A DNA stretch of 64,000 bases from a virus: positions 52,741 through 116,740 of the IMG/VR virus record IMGVR_UViG_3300025853_009406; one strand, 5' to 3'. This document shows, one piece after another, positions 18,120 through 55,300 of this stretch. Each line of letters starts with the position of its first letter. The first letter of the stretch is position 1. Below the pieces are notes generated by a model. That model was given only the letters and a program-made list of their open reading frames with translations, was not told the origin of the DNA and did not search any database. A program made the translations under genes and the position numbers.

Positions 18120-18644
18120 TCAAGAATCAGGTAAGATATCATCGTCTGCGGTTCCACCAGGACCAGCATCTCCAGTAATGTGGCTACCTGCAACTAATAC
18201 TTCAGTCTTAACTCTAAGTACTTGTCCACCAGCACCATCTGTTCCCATGTAGGTTGTAATTCCAACCCATCCAGCATGAGCAGGTTTGTATTGTGACCCA
18301 TCGTCAACGGCAGCAGTTTGCTCTGCTACATCTACACCATAAATTTCCTCACCACCCCAATTGGAGTCTTCATTGACATAAACTGGTTGCTCAGAAATGT
18401 TATATGTTACAGCACTAATTGCAGTTCCATCAAGACCAGTGGTATTGACGATTGTGCATGTGGTATTTCCTGTACGCTCATTTATAACTGCGCTTCCTTT
18501 ACCTGTAATGGTAATAACCGCACCCTCAATGGTGGCAGCAGCAGGAAGAGTGGCACCACCAGCGAAAGTTGCAACCTTAGTTGTAAGGTCAACGCTAACG
18601 GTACCAGTCGAGTATAAAGAGTCTGATGATCCCCAAAGAGACAT
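18120..18644 (-). CDS. Probable virion protein
   Basis: 174 aa, starting MSLWGSSDSLYSTGT. Rich in Thr, Gly, Ala and Val with predicted beta structure throughout (AVITITGKGSAVINERTG), as in small head-decoration or fibre proteins. Acidic C-terminus. MSLWG starts are common among cyanophage structural proteins. A T4-type late promoter lies 30 bp upstream. The exact role is unknown. Confidence 0.6.
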   Translation of the reverse strand: MSLWGSSDSLYSTGTVSVDLTTKVATFAGGATLPAAATIEGAVITITGKGSAVINERTGNTTCTIVNTTGLDGTAISAVTYNISEQPVYVNEDSNWGGEEIYGVDVAEQTAAVDDGSQYKPAHAGWVGITTYMGTDGAGGQVLRVKTEVLVAGSHITGDAGPGGTADDDILPDS

Positions 18645-18673
18645 GTTTTCTTACCTTTAATTCTTTATATTGA

Positions 18674-18681
18674 TATTTATA
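18674..18681 (-). promoter_or_regulatory. T4-type late promoter TATAAATA
   Basis: Exact late motif on the minus strand, 30 bp before the MSLWG virion-type gene at 18644. Confidence 0.7.
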
Positions 18682-18683
18682 AA

Positions 18684-18887
18684 TTATTCCGCTTCCCTGG
18701 CAAGAATCGCTTTCTTAACAACTTCAAGAAGTTGATCGTCCATATCAGTTTTAGTTAACTTAACCGCTTTACCCAAGATAATAAGACAGATCTCAACCAA
18801 CTTTTCACCGAGTTCTTCGTTTTCTGGAATTTTGTTAACGGCATCTGAGATTACCTTTGAGGCGATTGGGAGTAAAAATGCAAGCAT
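18684..18887 (-). CDS. 67-aa protein with hydrophobic N-terminus
   Basis: MLAFLLPIASKVISDAVNKI then LVEICLIILGKAVKL: one short and one moderate hydrophobic segment, with a charged helical end. A holin-like role has been considered, but the segments are short and no lysis gene is adjacent. Function unknown. Confidence 0.55.
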   Translation of the reverse strand: MLAFLLPIASKVISDAVNKIPENEELGEKLVEICLIILGKAVKLTKTDMDDQLLEVVKKAILAREAE

Positions 18888-18923
18888 GATCTTATACCAA
18901 ATGATCTACAAATATATAGGAGA

Positions 18924-19319
18924 TCATTTTTTATTTTTTGCTGCTTCCACTTCTTTTGTAAAGTCTTTGAATGATTTTCTTCCAGGAGAATCGGCATGTT
19001 TAAATGTACGTTTCTTTTTAGAAGACTTATCAATTTCCCTCATTTTCAAAGCATCGCTAACTTTTCTTCTCAAACTTGGTCTTCCTATAGGTGGTTTAGT
19101 CTTATCAATCGCTCTCGCAATTTTTAAACCAACACCTTCTTCAACTTTCTTCTTTTCAGGAAGACCTTTATGCTTAGTAGAAGCAAAGTCTTTTACATCC
19201 TTCTTTTTCATAGAGGCAGCAACTTCGGCAGTTTCGGGAGTTGTAGGTGCCATCTCACCTTTTTGGATGGCACGAACTATTCCAAAAAACTTTTGCTGGG
19301 CTTTAGATACTGCAGGCAT
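18924..19319 (-). CDS. DUF3008-like basic protein
   Basis: 131 aa from ATG 19319 (MPAVSKAQQKFFGIV), one base after the previous stop. MPAxSKAQQ at the start and DFASTKHKGLPEKK near residue 45-57 are the two marks of DUF3008 proteins. The C-terminal half is very basic (RPSLRRKVSDALKMRE..KKKRTFKHADSPGRK), which suggests DNA binding. It sits in a block with late or virion-type genes, so it may be packaged with the genome. Confidence 0.65.
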   Translation of the reverse strand: MPAVSKAQQKFFGIVRAIQKGEMAPTTPETAEVAASMKKKDVKDFASTKHKGLPEKKKVEEGVGLKIARAIDKTKPPIGRPSLRRKVSDALKMREIDKSSKKKRTFKHADSPGRKSFKDFTKEVEAAKNKK

Positions 19320-19320
19320 A

Positions 19321-20490
19321 TCACTTCCTTTGGGTTTTCTTTGCCATAACTGCTTTATCACCGTACTTTGCTTTAAGATCTCCAACTACTTTATCAAATG
19401 CAGACATTTGAGTGTCTCCAGATGATTTCTTCTTAGGACCTGTTGCTGTTCTGGGGGGACGACGATAATCAGTATTACCGTCAACACCACCACGCTCCAT
19501 ACGCTGATCTCTTAGACGATCTTCCGCAGATTCAATCATATCACCTTCCATATCATAAGACATTTTGATACCCATTGCTCTCAACTTGTTCCTACCAAGA
19601 TTAATTTTTGTCTTCATAGATCTTGGATCTTCATCATTGTTTTTCTCTTCAGGTTTACTAGAATCACAACCCTCACTATAATTCAAAGGAAGTTTTCCTT
19701 GCTTTTGCATTTGCATTGTCTGCCTTTGAAGCATCATTTTCTTCTGAAGCATTTTTTTCTTCATTTCAATTTCTTTTTGATCCTCTGGATTAGCAGACTC
19801 AACAGTTGGCTTCAAGTTAATATATTTTTTATTATTAACTTTTTTACCAGTTATTTTATCACCACAGGATCCACAATCTTTTTCATAGATAACTTCTTCA
19901 CCAACAGATTCTTTTCTAGTATCTTGCCCATCAGGTTTTCCACCCTTCTTACGCTGAATAGCGTTATGAACTGCACCAGCATGTTCTTTAGAAGAAGATT
20001 CTACTTTACCATCTCCATCATAATCTTTCTTTGCCTTTTTCTTAGTACTATCATAAGAAGTCATTTCAACTGAGGCAATATTTGGATTTGCGCGAAGTTC
20101 TGCAATCTTTGCACGAGTCGCATCTCTTGTGTATGAATTACCAGTCTTCTTATCAGTTACTCTAATATGATACTTTTGGTCCTCTTCTGTAAAAACTTTT
20201 TTAAAAACACTTTTTACAGTATCTTCTGCAAGTTGTGGAATATTATACTCTTCTTTTAATCCACCAGTAAGTTTTTTCTTTGCTAAAGCTTTAACAGCAG
20301 AGGGTGCTGGAGATTTTGCCAATTGTGCAAGATAAGCTTTTGCAACTTGAGCAGGATTAAGATTAGTTTGTCCACTCAGGGATTTTCTAACTTTGTATTT
20401 TACATCTGATGCAAGTTGGGATGCTTGCTTTTCAATATCAGTATCACCAGCGGCATGACCACGGCGAGCACCGCCTGTATTTTTAGACAT
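19321..20490 (-). CDS. Large charged protein, probable virion-associated
   Basis: 389 aa, low complexity with many Lys, Glu and Met (a Met/Gln-rich run near residues 240-265). YHIRVTDKKTGNSYTRDATR and IAELRANPNIASVEMTSY form a module seen, from memory, in several cyanophage virion proteins. KKDYDGDGKVESSSKEH has the DxDxDG calcium-loop pattern. A CGSCG cluster follows. Late promoter motifs precede it. Several IxE or LxE sites could be cut by the gp21 protease. No enzyme domain is seen. Confidence 0.6.
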   Translation of the reverse strand: MSKNTGGARRGHAAGDTDIEKQASQLASDVKYKVRKSLSGQTNLNPAQVAKAYLAQLAKSPAPSAVKALAKKKLTGGLKEEYNIPQLAEDTVKSVFKKVFTEEDQKYHIRVTDKKTGNSYTRDATRAKIAELRANPNIASVEMTSYDSTKKKAKKDYDGDGKVESSSKEHAGAVHNAIQRKKGGKPDGQDTRKESVGEEVIYEKDCGSCGDKITGKKVNNKKYINLKPTVESANPEDQKEIEMKKKMLQKKMMLQRQTMQMQKQGKLPLNYSEGCDSSKPEEKNNDEDPRSMKTKINLGRNKLRAMGIKMSYDMEGDMIESAEDRLRDQRMERGGVDGNTDYRRPPRTATGPKKKSSGDTQMSAFDKVVGDLKAKYGDKAVMAKKTQRK

Positions 20491-20505: not shown

Positions 20506-21723
20506 CTACTTTTTTCTATATTTATTTATGAATTGCTTACTCCAACATCCTGGCACCATACCTTCAACATACTTCCTATAAGAATCTGTACCAACAAGTC
20601 TTTGATCTGCAGGAACTCCTTGTTTTGCTTTACTATTTACAACCGCTTCATTTACATCCTTAATCCAAGACTTAAACATAATCTTATCTTCAGTTACACA
20701 AATTAAGTAATTAGTTCCACGACGAATTATCTTACCAACTAATCCAGTATTTACATTCTCTACAATTTGACCTACTTTGAAAATTTTATTATTAACAAAG
20801 TTTTCACGAAGATTTTTCCAATCAAATTTAGGAGCAATCTCCCAGAGATTCCATCCTTCTTTAATTTGCATAGCAGTGCGAAGATTATTGTAAAGTTCTC
20901 TTGCCTGCTTATTATTCAAAGTTGATGGAACACCTTTGCGGAATGATGCAAAGTCTCCTTCTGCTGCTGCCTTTCTCTGCTTGGATGCAGACATGCCAGA
21001 AACATCATCACCATCAGGATCTCTATCACCTGCCGAACGAACTTCTACATTATCAAAAGCATATAATTTTCCATTATAATTGTTTGAAAGATTTTCAAAT
21101 TCTTTTACCCTGTCTCCACCACCGATAATACGAACACCAGAATATCCATCCATGTGCGCCTTCTTCAAGACATCAAATATAGTACGATTTTGTGGGTCAT
21201 TAACAATTTTCTCACTATGCTGAGGGAACATCTGACGCATCACAGATACTTTAGTATCAGCATCTAATGGATTTTTTTTCTTATCATTAGATCTTGAAGG
21301 GACAATAATATAATCACCATCATCAGAACTTGATGCTACGGTATCCAAAAGTTTTTCATGACCAGTTGTTGGTGGATTAAAACGTCCAAATGCAATAGTC
21401 AGTGTACCTTTAGTTTTTTCAACCTCTGGTGGAACCATAGGTGGTTTTTCTGATGTTGGTTGTTTTTGAGTTTCAACTCCTGCTGCTGGTTCTGAAGTCG
21501 TATTTGAAAGATTTTTTTCCTTATCAGTTTGTGGAGGATCTTGCTTCCCAACTCTTTGTCTTTTATTAAAAAACTTTAATCTTCCTTTTTCCGTTTTCGC
21601 TACAAATTCACCATCTTTATCATACCAACCACCATGACCATCACTCTGCAATCCCATTCTAGAAGCTTGTTGGACTGCTACTGATGCTGATGCTTCCTTG
21701 ATAAAATTTAAAAAACTTTTCAT
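20506..21723 (-). CDS. Nucleotidylyltransferase (NMNAT/cytidylyltransferase-like) with capsid-targeting-like N-terminus
   Basis: 405 aa. Residues 1-12 read MKSFLNFIKEAS, close to the T4 internal-protein capsid-targeting sequence MKTYQEFIAEA, which the prohead protease cuts after the Glu of IxE. A linker rich in Pro, Gln and Lys follows. From about residue 108 there is a nucleotidylyltransferase fold: AFGRFNPPTTGHEKLL (the GxFxPxHxGH-type motif, with TGHE) and MSASKQRKAA (the ISSTxxR-type motif). It could adenylylate or cytidylylate a small nucleotide. The C-terminal 120 residues are unassigned and basic. It is joined to the next gene by ATGA. See findings. Confidence 0.75.
   Translation of the reverse strand: MKSFLNFIKEASASVAVQQASRMGLQSDGHGGWYDKDGEFVAKTEKGRLKFFNKRQRVGKQDPPQTDKEKNLSNTTSEPAAGVETQKQPTSEKPPMVPPEVEKTKGTLTIAFGRFNPPTTGHEKLLDTVASSSDDGDYIIVPSRSNDKKKNPLDADTKVSVMRQMFPQHSEKIVNDPQNRTIFDVLKKAHMDGYSGVRIIGGGDRVKEFENLSNNYNGKLYAFDNVEVRSAGDRDPDGDDVSGMSASKQRKAAAEGDFASFRKGVPSTLNNKQARELYNNLRTAMQIKEGWNLWEIAPKFDWKNLRENFVNNKIFKVGQIVENVNTGLVGKIIRRGTNYLICVTEDKIMFKSWIKDVNEAVVNSKAKQGVPADQRLVGTDSYRKYVEGMVPGCWSKQFINKYRKK
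20519..20530 (-). promoter_or_regulatory. Late promoter motifs NATAAATA (two overlapping)
   Basis: On the minus strand CATAAATA and AATAAATA overlap at 20519-20530, about 30 bp before the start of the 389-aa virion-type gene. Confidence 0.55.
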
Positions 21724-22910
21724 TTATCCCAATTTTTCGCTACTGTAAAGTTCGCTTTACTAAATTCTAAACGATCTACAAGTTTTAATGCAGATCCAGA
21801 TTTGATTGCAACAAATCCTTCTGGTGAAGTCTGTCTGTAACCATCTTCGGTGTTTATAAACGTCCCGAGAGATTTAACCTTTTCAAGTTGTCTAATTACA
21901 ATTGTTTTTGCAGTTTGAAGATTCATATAAGAAGCAACTGTCATATAAACAGATTGCTTATTTTTTTGTATGAAATTCAAACCATCTATCTTCATCTTTA
22001 GATATTTATTCTTAGTTGTTTTTGTCTTTTTGGACATTATTTCTTTATCCAAGACATCAGAATAATAATTTGAAAATTGTGATGTTACTTCTCTAACGTT
22101 TGGCAAACGTTTTCCGTTCTTAACATAGGTATTGAAATACATTTTAAAAAGTTTTGACATGATGAATTTCGATTCGCCTGTAGATGTCAAAACATCTAAA
22201 AATTTAGAAGCTTGCTTTAATGATCCTTCAGCCCGATTTACTGCAGATATATATTTCCTATATTCTGGTTCAGTAAAATTAGCAATTCCAGTTGCATCAG
22301 TAAAAGAAGCAGATGCAACATAAACATCAGATGTTTTAGTCAAATTGGAAGTATTAGCACCAAATGAAGCAGACATTTCTGGAATAGTTTCTCCAGTATA
22401 TTTTGTATGGAATACTATTCCTATTTTTGCAGTTTTAATAATATCCGCTAATGGAGATTGAATATCGACAGCATATGTTATTGTATTTGGTCTAAAAGAA
22501 ATTACTCTTTCACCATTAATTGTTTGTACAGATTTATCATCAGTAAACAAAAGATCTCCTTGCAAAACTCCAGTTATGTTTAATTTTTTCAAGTGCTTCA
22601 AACATAATTTTAATTTTGCTGCCAATTGCCCAGTATACCAAAGATCAATATCTTCTTCATGATAGCATATCTTAGGTTCTGTTTTTGCAAAAACTGATTT
22701 CGTTCCAACAAAAAATAAATTTGTTTGTGGATCTACACCACAAACAATAGCTGGAGCACCATCCCATTTAGTGGTAACACTAATTGATGATGTTTTTTGA
22801 TGTAGCATATCACCAAGTTCTCTCAAAAATGCTATAGCATTTTTTCCACCATCGGATCCATTATTAAGAATGTCATCTTCTAAATGTTCTAAGTGTGTGT
22901 TCTTTGCCAT
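21720..22910 (-). CDS. KxDG nucleotidyltransferase (ligase/capping superfamily-like), unknown substrate
   Basis: 396 aa. It shows the ordered motifs of covalent nucleotidyltransferases. Motif I is TTKWDGAPAIV with Lys48 as candidate nucleotidyl-lysine. LQGDLLF at 116-122 resembles motif III (GEL), with YAVD further on. SPEGFVAIKS with Glu364 resembles motif IV (EGxV), and ALKLVDRLEF resembles motif V (xKxK/xKLxxxxF). The spacing between III and IV is longer than in T4 RNA ligases. The enzyme should use ATP or NAD to modify or join nucleic acid. The chemistry is an inference from motifs. It is coupled on both sides to unassigned genes. Confidence 0.65.
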   Translation of the reverse strand: MAKNTHLEHLEDDILNNGSDGGKNAIAFLRELGDMLHQKTSSISVTTKWDGAPAIVCGVDPQTNLFFVGTKSVFAKTEPKICYHEEDIDLWYTGQLAAKLKLCLKHLKKLNITGVLQGDLLFTDDKSVQTINGERVISFRPNTITYAVDIQSPLADIIKTAKIGIVFHTKYTGETIPEMSASFGANTSNLTKTSDVYVASASFTDATGIANFTEPEYRKYISAVNRAEGSLKQASKFLDVLTSTGESKFIMSKLFKMYFNTYVKNGKRLPNVREVTSQFSNYYSDVLDKEIMSKKTKTTKNKYLKMKIDGLNFIQKNKQSVYMTVASYMNLQTAKTIVIRQLEKVKSLGTFINTEDGYRQTSPEGFVAIKSGSALKLVDRLEFSKANFTVAKNWDK

Positions 22911-44028: not shown

Positions 44029-44258
44029 TACTTTTTGTCCTCCTCGTATTCGATTACAATTTTATATTTAACATTACCACGACTATCTTGTTCGACGTAC
44101 TTTTTAAGTTCGCCATCCAAATTTTCTGCGATTTGATGCAATTGCCACCAGGGAATAATTTTTTCCCTTTTACCCTCTACCATTTTAGATTGTTTATCAT
44201 CCCAAATGTAATTATGCAATTTACCATCTTTACCAATAACTTGATAATCATATTCCAT
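44028..44258 (-). CDS. 76-aa protein, unknown
   Basis: MEYDYQVIGKDGKLHNYIWD..., with KIIPWWQLHQIAENLDGELKK and an acidic end. Beta then helix. It touches the glutaredoxin gene (TAATG) and is 2 bp from the 104-aa gene. Confidence 0.6.
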   Translation of the reverse strand: MEYDYQVIGKDGKLHNYIWDDKQSKMVEGKREKIIPWWQLHQIAENLDGELKKYVEQDSRGNVKYKIVIEYEEDKK

Positions 44259-44260
44259 AA

Positions 44261-44575
44261 TTAATCTCTCTGTCGCCAGTCATCTGGTTTGTCTTGTTTG
44301 AACCAATCTACGATTTCATCCGCAGAATCAAACCCCGATTTGTAATTAGATGGGTCGGGGTCTCCTAATCCCATCTTATTCATAAAATCGTCCATACTAC
44401 CTTCCTCAATATCTTGTGATGCCTGGCGACGTGCTTTACGCAACCATTCTCTAGCAGTAGTATGACGTTTGGCAAGTTTCTCTGCCCAAATCATATCTTC
44501 AAGTTTGACTTCTTCCTTGTTAGCAATCTTCTTACAGATAAACTCCAGTCGGAGTCTGTATTGAGTGGATAGCAT
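44261..44575 (-). CDS. 104-aa protein, unknown
   Basis: MLSTQYRLRLEFICKKIANK, then a basic helix AKRHTTAREWLRKARRQASQ, then acidic C-terminus with DDFMNKMGLGDPDPSNYKSG. A 2-domain helical small protein; no known family. Confidence 0.6.
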   Translation of the reverse strand: MLSTQYRLRLEFICKKIANKEEVKLEDMIWAEKLAKRHTTAREWLRKARRQASQDIEEGSMDDFMNKMGLGDPDPSNYKSGFDSADEIVDWFKQDKPDDWRQRD

Positions 44576-52664: not shown

Positions 52665-54098
52665 TCACATAAGGTTCTCAACACGTACTCTTCTGTAGTA
52701 ACGGTTGGAGTTAACGTTCATGCGTCCGAGACCTGCAGTGGTTCCTTCAGCGAATGGGTTAGCAACAAGACCGTAGCGGGTCTTAAAGCCGATCTTAGGC
52801 TGGAAGGTGTTCTCTCCAACGGCACGAACCATCTGGAGGGGAACATATGGGCAATAGAACAGACCAGCGTCATAAGGTGAAGAACCCTTATAACCTGCAA
52901 CGTAGTATTGTCCACCACTAGCATTGGGGTTAGAACCACCAGAATAAGGATCGATATATACGCGATACTTACCAGCAAGTACACCAGCGAAGGTGTTACC
53001 AGTATCATCAACCTGGAGGTTAGCGTTAAGAGCAGGGGTGTAATCGAGTACACCAGCCATGGTCAGAGCGGAAGCAACGTCTGCAGAGCAGAGGATCATG
53101 TTGCCTTTTCCACGACGAGTTTCGGTTGCGATTGCGTTAGCATCACGCTCGATTTGGAAGATAAGTCCCTTGAACTTCTCAACACTCCAGCGACCGTTGG
53201 AGTCAACGTCGAGGTCGAAACGACCAGGGTTAGCAACATTGTGCTGAGCACCAGACTTAGCAGTCTTATAGATGGTGCGGATAACTTCGCGGTTGATCTC
53301 AGCAAGGATCTCAGTGGAGAGAATGTTTGCGAGTTCTGCTTCTGCATTCAGACCGTGGATCGCTCTCAGATCTTGGGCAAGCTCAAGGCTGTATTCTGCT
53401 TTCAGAGCACGGCTCTTAGCAGTAACAGCAACTTTCTCGATTGAGAAAGCCATCTGGTTGAAGTGATCTCCATCCTCAGAACCGAGTGCTTCAGCATCTT
53501 CGGTATTCATACCGCGTCCAACGGTATAAGCAGCCTGAGTGGAGTTGGAGTCTGGGCTCAGAAGACCAGGGTTAGATCCACCTTGTGCAGCAGTGGTACC
53601 AAATCCAACAGCACCACCAGAACTTGAACCTTCATTACCAGTATAACCAGCACTAGTGAGGTCACGTCCATCGTCTTGTGCGGAATATGCGGTATCTGGC
53701 TCGTTGAAGAATGCTTCGTCGGCAGATCCAGGTGCGCCATACTTAGAGCGCATTGCGAAGATCAGTCCAGTAGGACCATTCATTGGTTGAACGCCAGCGA
53801 GGTCATATGCGACCAGGTTAGGCATTGAACGTCTGATCAAAGAGATCAGAACGGGATCGAAACCAGCAACAGGAGCGGAAGCATCAGCAGAGAAACCTGC
53901 GGTTCCTCCCGATGAACCAGTGCTCATGTTTGGTGTTTCGTACAGGAACTCACGCTCCTCACGAAGTGATTTTTCTTGGTTCTCTAACAGGATTGCGGTA
54001 ACAGCTCTGCGATGGGAATCTTTGATCGAATCCATGCCCTCGTAGTCGAGGACTGGTGCCCACTTCTCCTGCAGAGCTTCAGCATTGAAACTTTGCAT
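52665..54098 (-). CDS. 23: Major capsid protein (gp23)
   Basis: 477 aa (T4 521), HK97-fold T4 type. N-terminal FNAEALQEKWAPVLDYEG and RRAVTAILLENQEK match the T4 prohead delta domain; FDPVLISLIRRSMPNLVAYD and GVQPMNGPTGLIFAMRSKYG the core start; FAEGTTAGLGRMNVNSNRYYRRVRVENLM-type C-terminus. The precursor is expected to be cut by gp21. Base composition is richer in GC than its neighbours, as is usual for highly expressed capsid genes. A ribosome site GAGG precedes ATG. Confidence 0.97.
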   Translation of the reverse strand: MQSFNAEALQEKWAPVLDYEGMDSIKDSHRRAVTAILLENQEKSLREEREFLYETPNMSTGSSGGTAGFSADASAPVAGFDPVLISLIRRSMPNLVAYDLAGVQPMNGPTGLIFAMRSKYGAPGSADEAFFNEPDTAYSAQDDGRDLTSAGYTGNEGSSSGGAVGFGTTAAQGGSNPGLLSPDSNSTQAAYTVGRGMNTEDAEALGSEDGDHFNQMAFSIEKVAVTAKSRALKAEYSLELAQDLRAIHGLNAEAELANILSTEILAEINREVIRTIYKTAKSGAQHNVANPGRFDLDVDSNGRWSVEKFKGLIFQIERDANAIATETRRGKGNMILCSADVASALTMAGVLDYTPALNANLQVDDTGNTFAGVLAGKYRVYIDPYSGGSNPNASGGQYYVAGYKGSSPYDAGLFYCPYVPLQMVRAVGENTFQPKIGFKTRYGLVANPFAEGTTAGLGRMNVNSNRYYRRVRVENLM

Positions 54099-54151: not shown

Positions 54152-55300
54152 TCACTTTTTAGCAGATCTTGAGAGTGTCTCAAGGTACGCTTCCATTACA
54201 CCACCAACGGATGGTTGTGCTTCTTGGATTTCGGTACTTTCTGAGAGATTCTCAGAATCGTCCTTTTGAGTGCTAGCAGTTCTTGTAGGGAAATATGATT
54301 CTTTTAAAGTTGCCAGCTTCTCACGATATTTTTCTTCACTTTCAAACTCAACATTTTCTGCAAGAGAAGCGAGCTTGTCTTTCTGAGAAAGTGCGAGACC
54401 CTCAGTGACTTCTGCAAAAATTACATCTGCAACTGACTCTGCTAATCTTTGATTTAGAGCAATATTTGACTTAATCTGCTCGTTGAGTTTATCTTCCATT
54501 TCATCAAGTTTTTCTACCATGCTATTGAGTACATCATACTTATCTTCAGGGATTGTTACATAATGTTCTTCAAAAAGACCCTTCATTCCAGTAAGGAATG
54601 ATTCGGTCATTTCAGTCTTGAGACCGTGCTCAACAGCAAGTTGATTTTCGTTCATCCACTCTTGAGCAACATACTCAAGATAGGAATCTACACGTTCTAC
54701 AAGTTCAGTTTTAACAGCTAAAACTTCTTCTACCAATGCTTCTTCATAAGAAGATTTTAATTCTTCCTTAATTTCGGAAACCTTAGATTTGATAGCAGCT
54801 TCAAAAATGGTACGTGCTTTCTCTTGGAATTCTTCGGAAAGTTCCTCTCCTTCTAAGAGAGCAGTAACATCCTCCTCAACATCAATGTTGAGTTCTTCTG
54901 TTTCTTCTGCTTCGGCAACCACTTCTTCTTCAGTAGTTTCTTCTTCAGCAACTACTTCTTCTTCGGTGGTTTCTTCTTCAGAAACTACTTCCTCTTCAGC
55001 AACGATTTCTTGGTCTTCTTCGACTTCGATTTCTTCTTCTTCCTTAGCCATTTTAGGCATTGAATCTGCTGCTTTTGCGCCCTTATTGACAACATTTTTT
55101 ACTTGTGCCAACGTTGCGGAAGGATCCTTTAACTTTGCGGAATCATCGTCTGCACGATAATTTTCTGGAGTAGGACCGCCTAGATCTTCCACAGAACCTA
55201 ATTGAGTTCCTGGATCTGCCATTTTAGGCATTGGATCTGCAGGCTTAGCCCCTTTGGTTACTACGTTTTCCATTTCTTGTAAATTGCTACCAACGGACAT
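54152..55300 (-). CDS. 22: Prohead scaffold protein (gp22)
   Basis: 382 aa (T4 269), longer because of an acidic repeat-rich insert. The N-terminal 85 residues hold two copies of a VVxKGAKxADxMPKMA unit; residues about 86-136 are nearly all Glu, Val and Thr. The rest is a long coiled coil (AAIKSKVSEIKEELKSSYEE, KLDEMEDKLNEQIKSNIALN), as in the T4 core protein. It shapes the prohead and is later degraded by gp21. A TATAAATA promoter precedes it. Confidence 0.88.
   Translation of the reverse strand: MSVGSNLQEMENVVTKGAKPADPMPKMADPGTQLGSVEDLGGPTPENYRADDDSAKLKDPSATLAQVKNVVNKGAKAADSMPKMAKEEEEIEVEEDQEIVAEEEVVSEEETTEEEVVAEEETTEEEVVAEAEETEELNIDVEEDVTALLEGEELSEEFQEKARTIFEAAIKSKVSEIKEELKSSYEEALVEEVLAVKTELVERVDSYLEYVAQEWMNENQLAVEHGLKTEMTESFLTGMKGLFEEHYVTIPEDKYDVLNSMVEKLDEMEDKLNEQIKSNIALNQRLAESVADVIFAEVTEGLALSQKDKLASLAENVEFESEEKYREKLATLKESYFPTRTASTQKDDSENLSESTEIQEAQPSVGGVMEAYLETLSRSAKK
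54893..55045. repeat. GAA/TTC-rich tandem repeat in gp22
   Basis: Repeated codons encode SEEETTEEEVVAEEETTEEE and similar runs. Two to three near-identical 30-bp units can be read. The repeat is in frame and probably varies in length between related phages. Confidence 0.7.

Follow-up and report, generated by a model that had tools for sequence, protein, structure and literature searches.

An adenylyltransferase-like protein of T4-like cyanophages with a T4-type capsid-targeting-like N-terminus

The internal proteins (IPs) of phage T4 that bear a capsid targeting sequence are ejected. The products of ipII and ipIII, taken from the T4 record, both start with MKTYQEFIAEA, and in IPIII residues 4 and 7 matter for targeting and residues 8 and 10 for processing (T4 head review, PMC9026906). 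T4 also carries in its head, and injects, an enzyme of nucleotide and nicotinamide adenine dinucleotide (NAD+) chemistry, the ADP-ribosyltransferase Alt, and other phages encode NAD+ salvage of the NadV-NadM/NadR type, in which NadM was always accompanied by NadV among the surveyed NadM phages (PMC9503650). For cyanophages, published reports list the T4-GC190 family among the core genes of cyanobacterial T4-like phages and describe its detection by mass spectrometry in S-SM1 virions (Sullivan et al., PMC3037559) and, as ORF91 and ORF154, in purified virions of S-SCSM1 (PMC9602691) and S-CREM2 (PMC10665884); entry of the protein into the host has also been proposed before. Here, a member of this family was analysed that is encoded on a 64,000-nucleotide stretch of viral DNA (IMG/VR record IMGVR_UViG_3300025853_009406, positions 52,741 to 116,740; hereafter the window). 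We consider it likely that this protein of 405 amino acids (aa) is a virion-packaged, delivered adenylyltransferase with a T4-type targeting peptide.

The 405-aa open reading frame was assigned to phrog_395 (1e-109), with a PF01467 (CTP_transf_like) match at residues 110-211 (1.8e-8, Pfam). Its P-SSM2 orthologue is annotated T4-GC 190 and the S-SM1 gene is labelled likewise. Relatives were found in 557 phage records, mostly of cyanophages, with S-SKS1 as the best named relative (78%), and at least 335 came from a single scan of environmental virus contigs. The virion proteins of S-SM1, S-SCSM1 (ORF91) and S-CREM2 (ORF154), labelled 'cytidylyltransferase/NMNAT', belong to the same family, with an orthologue in a near-identical neighbourhood; the available text of those reports describes neither the targeting peptide nor the module presented below. 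Virion presence of the family and the idea of an injected nicotinamide mononucleotide (NMN) adenylyltransferase (NMNAT) are therefore already published; what is new is the targeting peptide, the common module and the way both connect to the virion lists in the literature. A literature search, with subscription papers outside its reach, found no paper joining cyanophages and capsid targeting beyond one T4 review.

A sequence-only reading of the window had pointed to a T4-like start, and the comparison with ipII and ipIII agrees with it: 6 of the 11 residues of MKSFLNFIKEA are identical to the T4 peptide, and S/T and F/Y replacements account for two more. The same reading expected the motif to be kept in homologues. 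The strict form M[KR]x[FYLIM]xx[FYLIM][LIVFM]xE was present in 128 of 135 unique and in 98 of 103 non-redundant homologues, and the logo of the 135 unique sequences reads M-K-[SNT]-F-x-x-F-[LIF]-x-E-[AS]. K2, F4, F7 and E10 are each conserved at 94-98%, position 8 is L, I or F, and positions 3, 5, 6 and 9 are variable; entropy averages 0.34 bits over positions 2, 4, 7, 8 and 10 vs 1.67 bits over positions 3, 5, 6, 9 and 11. Since F4, F7, I8 and E10 of the window protein fall on the functional residues 4, 7, 8 and 10 of IPIII, the conserved positions are also the functional ones. The synonymous codons of the peptide vary freely (K as AAA/AAG 77/24, F as TTT/TTC, E as GAA/GAG 73/25), indicating that conservation acts at the protein level.

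Among ATG frames of at least 60 codons, the strict motif occurred in 1 of 720 in the 116.7-kb record of the window phage and in 2 of 1,361 in S-SCSM1, and two of these 3 matches in 2,081 frames were members of the adenylyltransferase-like family. As a positive control, a degenerate DNA pattern run on T4 returned ipII, ipIII and 61.1 only. Chance N-terminal similarity was ruled out by the conservation in homologues together with the background scans. Conservation as a by-product of the 4 bp shared with the upstream gene was also ruled out, since the peptide is kept where that gene differs or is absent and synonymous codons are used. T4 gene 61.1 (T4 record 18966-19130; 54 aa, hypothetical) begins MKTFKEFIKED with a targeting-like peptide and adjoins gene 61, which is the same neighbourhood as that of the cyanophage cluster. 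In phage Bellamy, the annotated start of gp170 (stretch L109, 3001-3049) lies 16 codons late and drops the targeting peptide MKSLFQFLNEA.

The sequence-only reading had placed the protein in virions, and its family is indeed present in those of S-SM1, S-SCSM1 and S-CREM2; these are orthologues, the window phage itself being uncultured. A search for the same N-terminal pattern in other cyanophages, as suggested there, found it in family homologues and in other S-CREM2 virion proteins. When all S-CREM2 start frames of 50 codons or more were scanned with the strict peptide, 4 of 3,854 matched, namely gp154, gp14 (a kinase), gp13 and gp6 (a S-adenosylmethionine (SAM) lyase, PF23780), and all four are within the 52 published virion proteins of about 219 S-CREM2 proteins (p 0.003; p ~0.012 for 3 of 3 when gp154, whose family supplied the motif, is left out). 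The virion protein gp12, a Cas9-like nuclease, carries RFASFMAEA behind a 17-aa extension, plus the module; thus all four non-structural, non-endolysin virion enzymes of S-CREM2 bear the peptide. A signal common to these enzymes argues against carry-over, which the S-CREM2 authors were unable to exclude for abundant proteins (PMC10665884) and which the S-SCSM1 authors raised as well. On the carry-over explanation, the enzyme would be the product of an ordinary metabolic gene and act in infected cells only, and its N-terminus would be an unrelated amphipathic helix. The position of the gene in the replication region, in the mazG-gp61 interval, is in keeping with this. The independent detection in three phages, the fit of the peptide to the T4 functional positions, its occurrence on virion enzymes of unrelated fold and its persistence without the enzyme in phage DSL-LC03 make carry-over very improbable in our view.

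Directly after the peptide lies not a linker, as the sequence-only reading had it, but a conserved module (residues 12-52); alignments, entropy and the predicted local distance difference test (pLDDT) confine the linker to residues ~53-104, which are of low complexity, disordered, and have the highest entropy (2.35 bits) and the lowest pLDDT (40-48 in residues 61-90). The module was modelled with a pLDDT of ~77-90 over residues 11-50 as a helix (15-22) and strands (32-34, 40-45 and 48-51). A hidden Markov model (HMM) built from adenylyltransferase-family rows only was run on S-CREM2, S-SCSM1, the window phage and one ACG-2014f stretch, each translated in six frames. It matched the S-CREM2 APH-like kinase gp14 (1e-21, two copies), the Cas9-like gp12 (8e-13) and gp179, a 980-aa ACG-2014f protein (2.7e-21); apart from these and the adenylyltransferase family, nothing in the four translated sources matched at E < 0.01. 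In addition, tblastn with the S-CREM2 modules found annotated serine/threonine kinases of S-CRM01, S-H34 and others. Residues 12-52 are therefore probably a second conserved piece of the tag, with peptide and module together forming a portable cyanophage packaging and delivery signal. For a wider proposal we hold the case to be evenly balanced: that this two-part signal (peptide plus ~40-aa DGHGGW module) loads unrelated enzymes (the adenylyltransferase, a protein-kinase-like protein, a Cas9-like nuclease and an HNH-like protein; with the peptide alone, for example, the SAM lyase) as an injected counter-defence or takeover cocktail, the role of the adenylyltransferase being to safeguard NAD+ ahead of any phage gene expression. 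By eye, the tagged 980-aa ACG-2014f protein (stretch L087, 2460-5402) contains an HNH-like stretch, TIDHLEGRS...N...VNWAK, and it has no Pfam match.

Rearrangements across relatives were also observed. S-CREM2 gp154 has retained the peptide and lost the module, and a 90-aa protein of DSL-LC03 joins MKSFLEFISEA directly to the C-terminal small beta domain, with module and enzyme lost. The C-terminal domain is a separate gene in S-H9-2, ACG-2014h and S-RIM44, and relatives in jumbo enterobacterial and Pseudomonas phages are stand-alone and untagged. From these natural rearrangements, the peptide behaves as a separable unit. The DSL-LC03 protein, in which tag and C-terminal domain are retained and the enzyme is gone, and the presence of hypothetical neighbours from the cluster among the S-SCSM1 virion proteins, would also suit a core- or scaffold-associated prohead component that is targeted to the head and never delivered to the host. 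This we judge unlikely, given that the catalytic motifs are invariant, that co-tagged enzymes such as the SAM lyase have plausible host targets and that the T4 IPs with such a tag leave the head. DSL-LC03 (record positions 20694 and 84509) has four peptide-bearing genes, including those of a 412-aa and a 257-aa protein of unknown function.

In the putatively packaged and delivered enzyme, the catalytic part is a HIGH-type adenylyltransferase domain that is NMNAT-like, with NMN or NaMN as putative substrate. The motifs TTGH (119-122) and SASKQR (245-250) correspond to the (H/T)xGH and ISSTxxR-type motifs of NMN adenylyltransferases, and G113, R114, P117, G121, H122, S245 and R250 are invariant across the family. 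An NCBIfam match to NadR-type NMN adenylyltransferase (6.9e-6) was below cut-off, and the curated NMNAT cut-offs were missed (TIGR01526, 25.5 bits vs 341; TIGR00482, 21.3 vs 112), so the domain is classed as HIGH-type and NMNAT-like. The sequence-only label of an NMNAT/cytidylyltransferase-like domain is plausible in its first half, and its second half is probably wrong: fold and family searches disfavour 'cytidylyltransferase' and place NMN/nicotinic acid mononucleotide (NaMN) and pantetheine-phosphate adenylyltransferases (PPATs) nearest. A literature search found no papers naming 'cytitidyltransferase' or DUF6267. Foldseek returned PPAT, NadM, NadD and archaeal NMNAT structures in mixed order (E 9e-6 to 1e-3) with a PPAT first (8.8e-6), and coaD matched 8 of 22 family members in NCBIfam, consistent with a substrate other than NMN, the packaged enzyme then being a phosphopantetheine adenylyltransferase, an enzyme resembling flavin adenine dinucleotide (FAD) synthetase or a transferase whose substrate is RNA or some other nucleotide. 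More members were matched by the NMN and NaMN families (14 and 12 of the 22), and weak profile matches were to the NMNATs 1f9a, 2qjo and 9rpk; a non-NMN substrate is accordingly a tentative possibility, which we rate as somewhat doubtful.

Besides the carry-over caveat, several points weigh against a packaged and delivered NMNAT-like enzyme. None of the reported virion peptides shows a new N-terminus at residue 11. In about half of the family, Ser or some other residue occupies P1', the position after the predicted cut, and the S-CREM2 SAM lyase has Phe there; several virion neighbours in S-SCSM1 lack the targeting peptide. Some cyanophages (S-H9-2, ACG-2014h) have an untagged split enzyme. 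The NCBIfam matches lie under the curated cut-offs, and PPATs score on a par with NMNATs in the fold search. Furthermore, NadV or nicotinate phosphoribosyltransferase (NAPRTase) was not found in 12 complete related cyanophage records or in the window record, so NMN would need to be supplied by the host.

Under the delivered-enzyme reading, the first ten residues would dock the enzyme on the gp22 core while the prohead is being assembled. Cleavage by gp21 after Glu10 would leave the enzyme in the head, from which it would be delivered with the DNA. We infer that, right at the onset of infection, it would probably use host NMN to regenerate NAD+ or a related dinucleotide, which would counter NAD+ depletion or NAD+ use. 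The window protein resembles T4 IPII and IPIII in its ten-residue N-terminal peptide with K2, an aromatic residue 4, F7, I/L8, E10 and A11, in the presence of gp21 and a scaffold in the same phage, and in the known virion location of its relatives. It differs in that the IPs are small basic proteins without an enzyme domain or the 40-aa module, and in that cleavage is proven for T4 and only predicted here. It shares with Alt the nature of a head-carried enzyme of nucleotide/NAD+ chemistry; the domains are unrelated, and Alt consumes NAD+ whereas the window enzyme would make it. With NadV-NadM/NadR salvage it shares a HIGH-type adenylyltransferase domain and possible NAD+ restoration, and unlike that system it has the packaging tag, no NadV partner found and no Nudix or kinase domain. 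Since T4-GC190 is a core gene, an injected NAD+-related enzyme would be general in the attack on Synechococcus and Prochlorococcus. Repeated reports of virion enzymes in cyanophages have carried the caution that these may be contaminants. A conserved targeting signal answers this caution with a testable mechanism and lets injected effectors be predicted from genome sequences alone in a virus group that is among the most abundant in the ocean.

The features of the locus are listed in Table 1. The claim that this phage encodes the gp21 prohead protease was borne out by the Peptidase_S77 match. The predicted gp23 cut, EFLYE/TPN (slash at the cut), has as predicted counterparts SFLAE/APT in S-SCSM1 and GLLTE/APT in S-CREM2, and these capsid-protein cuts (EFLYE/T, SFLAE/A, GLLTE/A) resemble FIKE/A and FLTE/A of the enzyme; judging by the motif, gp21 may cleave the adenylyltransferase-like protein after Glu10.

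Table 1. Positions in the window of the adenylyltransferase-like gene, its parts and associated genes
Feature	Position	Strand	Basis or remark
Adenylyltransferase-like virion protein (phrog_395 family, T4-GC190)	20506..21723	-	405 aa, ATG start, begins MKSFLNFIKEAS (MKSFLNFIKEA)
Capsid-targeting-like sequence MKSFLNFIKE, residues 1-10	21694..21723	-	homologue conservation; T4 ipII/ipIII match; IPIII key positions (PMC9026906)
Predicted gp21 cut after Glu10	between 21694 and 21693	-	motif similarity
Conserved small helix plus beta module, residues 12-52 (ASRMGLQSDGHGGWYDKDGEFVAKTEKGRLKF), also on other virion enzymes	21568..21690	-	alignments, model, HMM
Variable low-confidence linker, residues 53-104	21412..21567	-	entropy, pLDDT
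HIGH-superfamily adenylyltransferase domain, residues 105-270	20914..21411	-	invariant residues, Foldseek, NCBIfam
C-terminal small beta domain, residues 302-360	20644..20820	-	stands alone with targeting peptide in DSL-LC03
DUF6267 (T4-GC71), upstream neighbour, frequent partner	21720..22910	-	PF19782, 1.2e-133; 4-bp start/stop overlap with enzyme gene
gp23 major capsid protein, predicted cut EFLYE/TPN	52665..54098	-	position and similarity to annotated S-SCSM1 genes
gp22-like prohead scaffold, presumed tag docking partner	54152..55300	-	between protease and capsid genes; similar to annotated S-SCSM1 scaffold
gp21 prohead protease, 216 aa	55361..56011	-	Peptidase_S77, E 4.6e-38 (Pfam)

T4-GC_71 precedes T4-GC_190 in several phages, and the phrog_455 profile covers both DUF6267 and the adenylyltransferase-like protein; S-SCSM1 is without DUF6267 directly upstream. 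The invariant KWDG, QGD, EGxV (EGFV) and K (KLV) motifs of DUF6267 resemble those of covalent nucleotidyltransferases (DNA/RNA ligases). The top fold match of its model was a DNA ligase at an E value of only 0.13, and a sequence search gave nothing; with S-SCSM1 as an exception, an NAD+-recycling pair of the enzyme with DUF6267 as an NAD+-dependent ligase was therefore set aside as only suggestive.

The mazG-gp61 interval of S-SCSM1 (stretch L088, 3539-10488) encodes seven or more of the annotated virion proteins (89-93, 95 and 97), most without the peptide, and several of the virion proteins there are homologous to window genes at 18120-19322. A second family of ~105 aa starts with the targeting-like peptide MK[TSN]FxQF[LM]SES and is a candidate small internal protein on the strength of this motif. 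Its members lie at 44215-44535 of stretch L094, at 112701-113009 of S-SKS1 and at 118339 of DSL-LC03, and in S-SCSM1 and S-SKS1 the gene stands beside terL.
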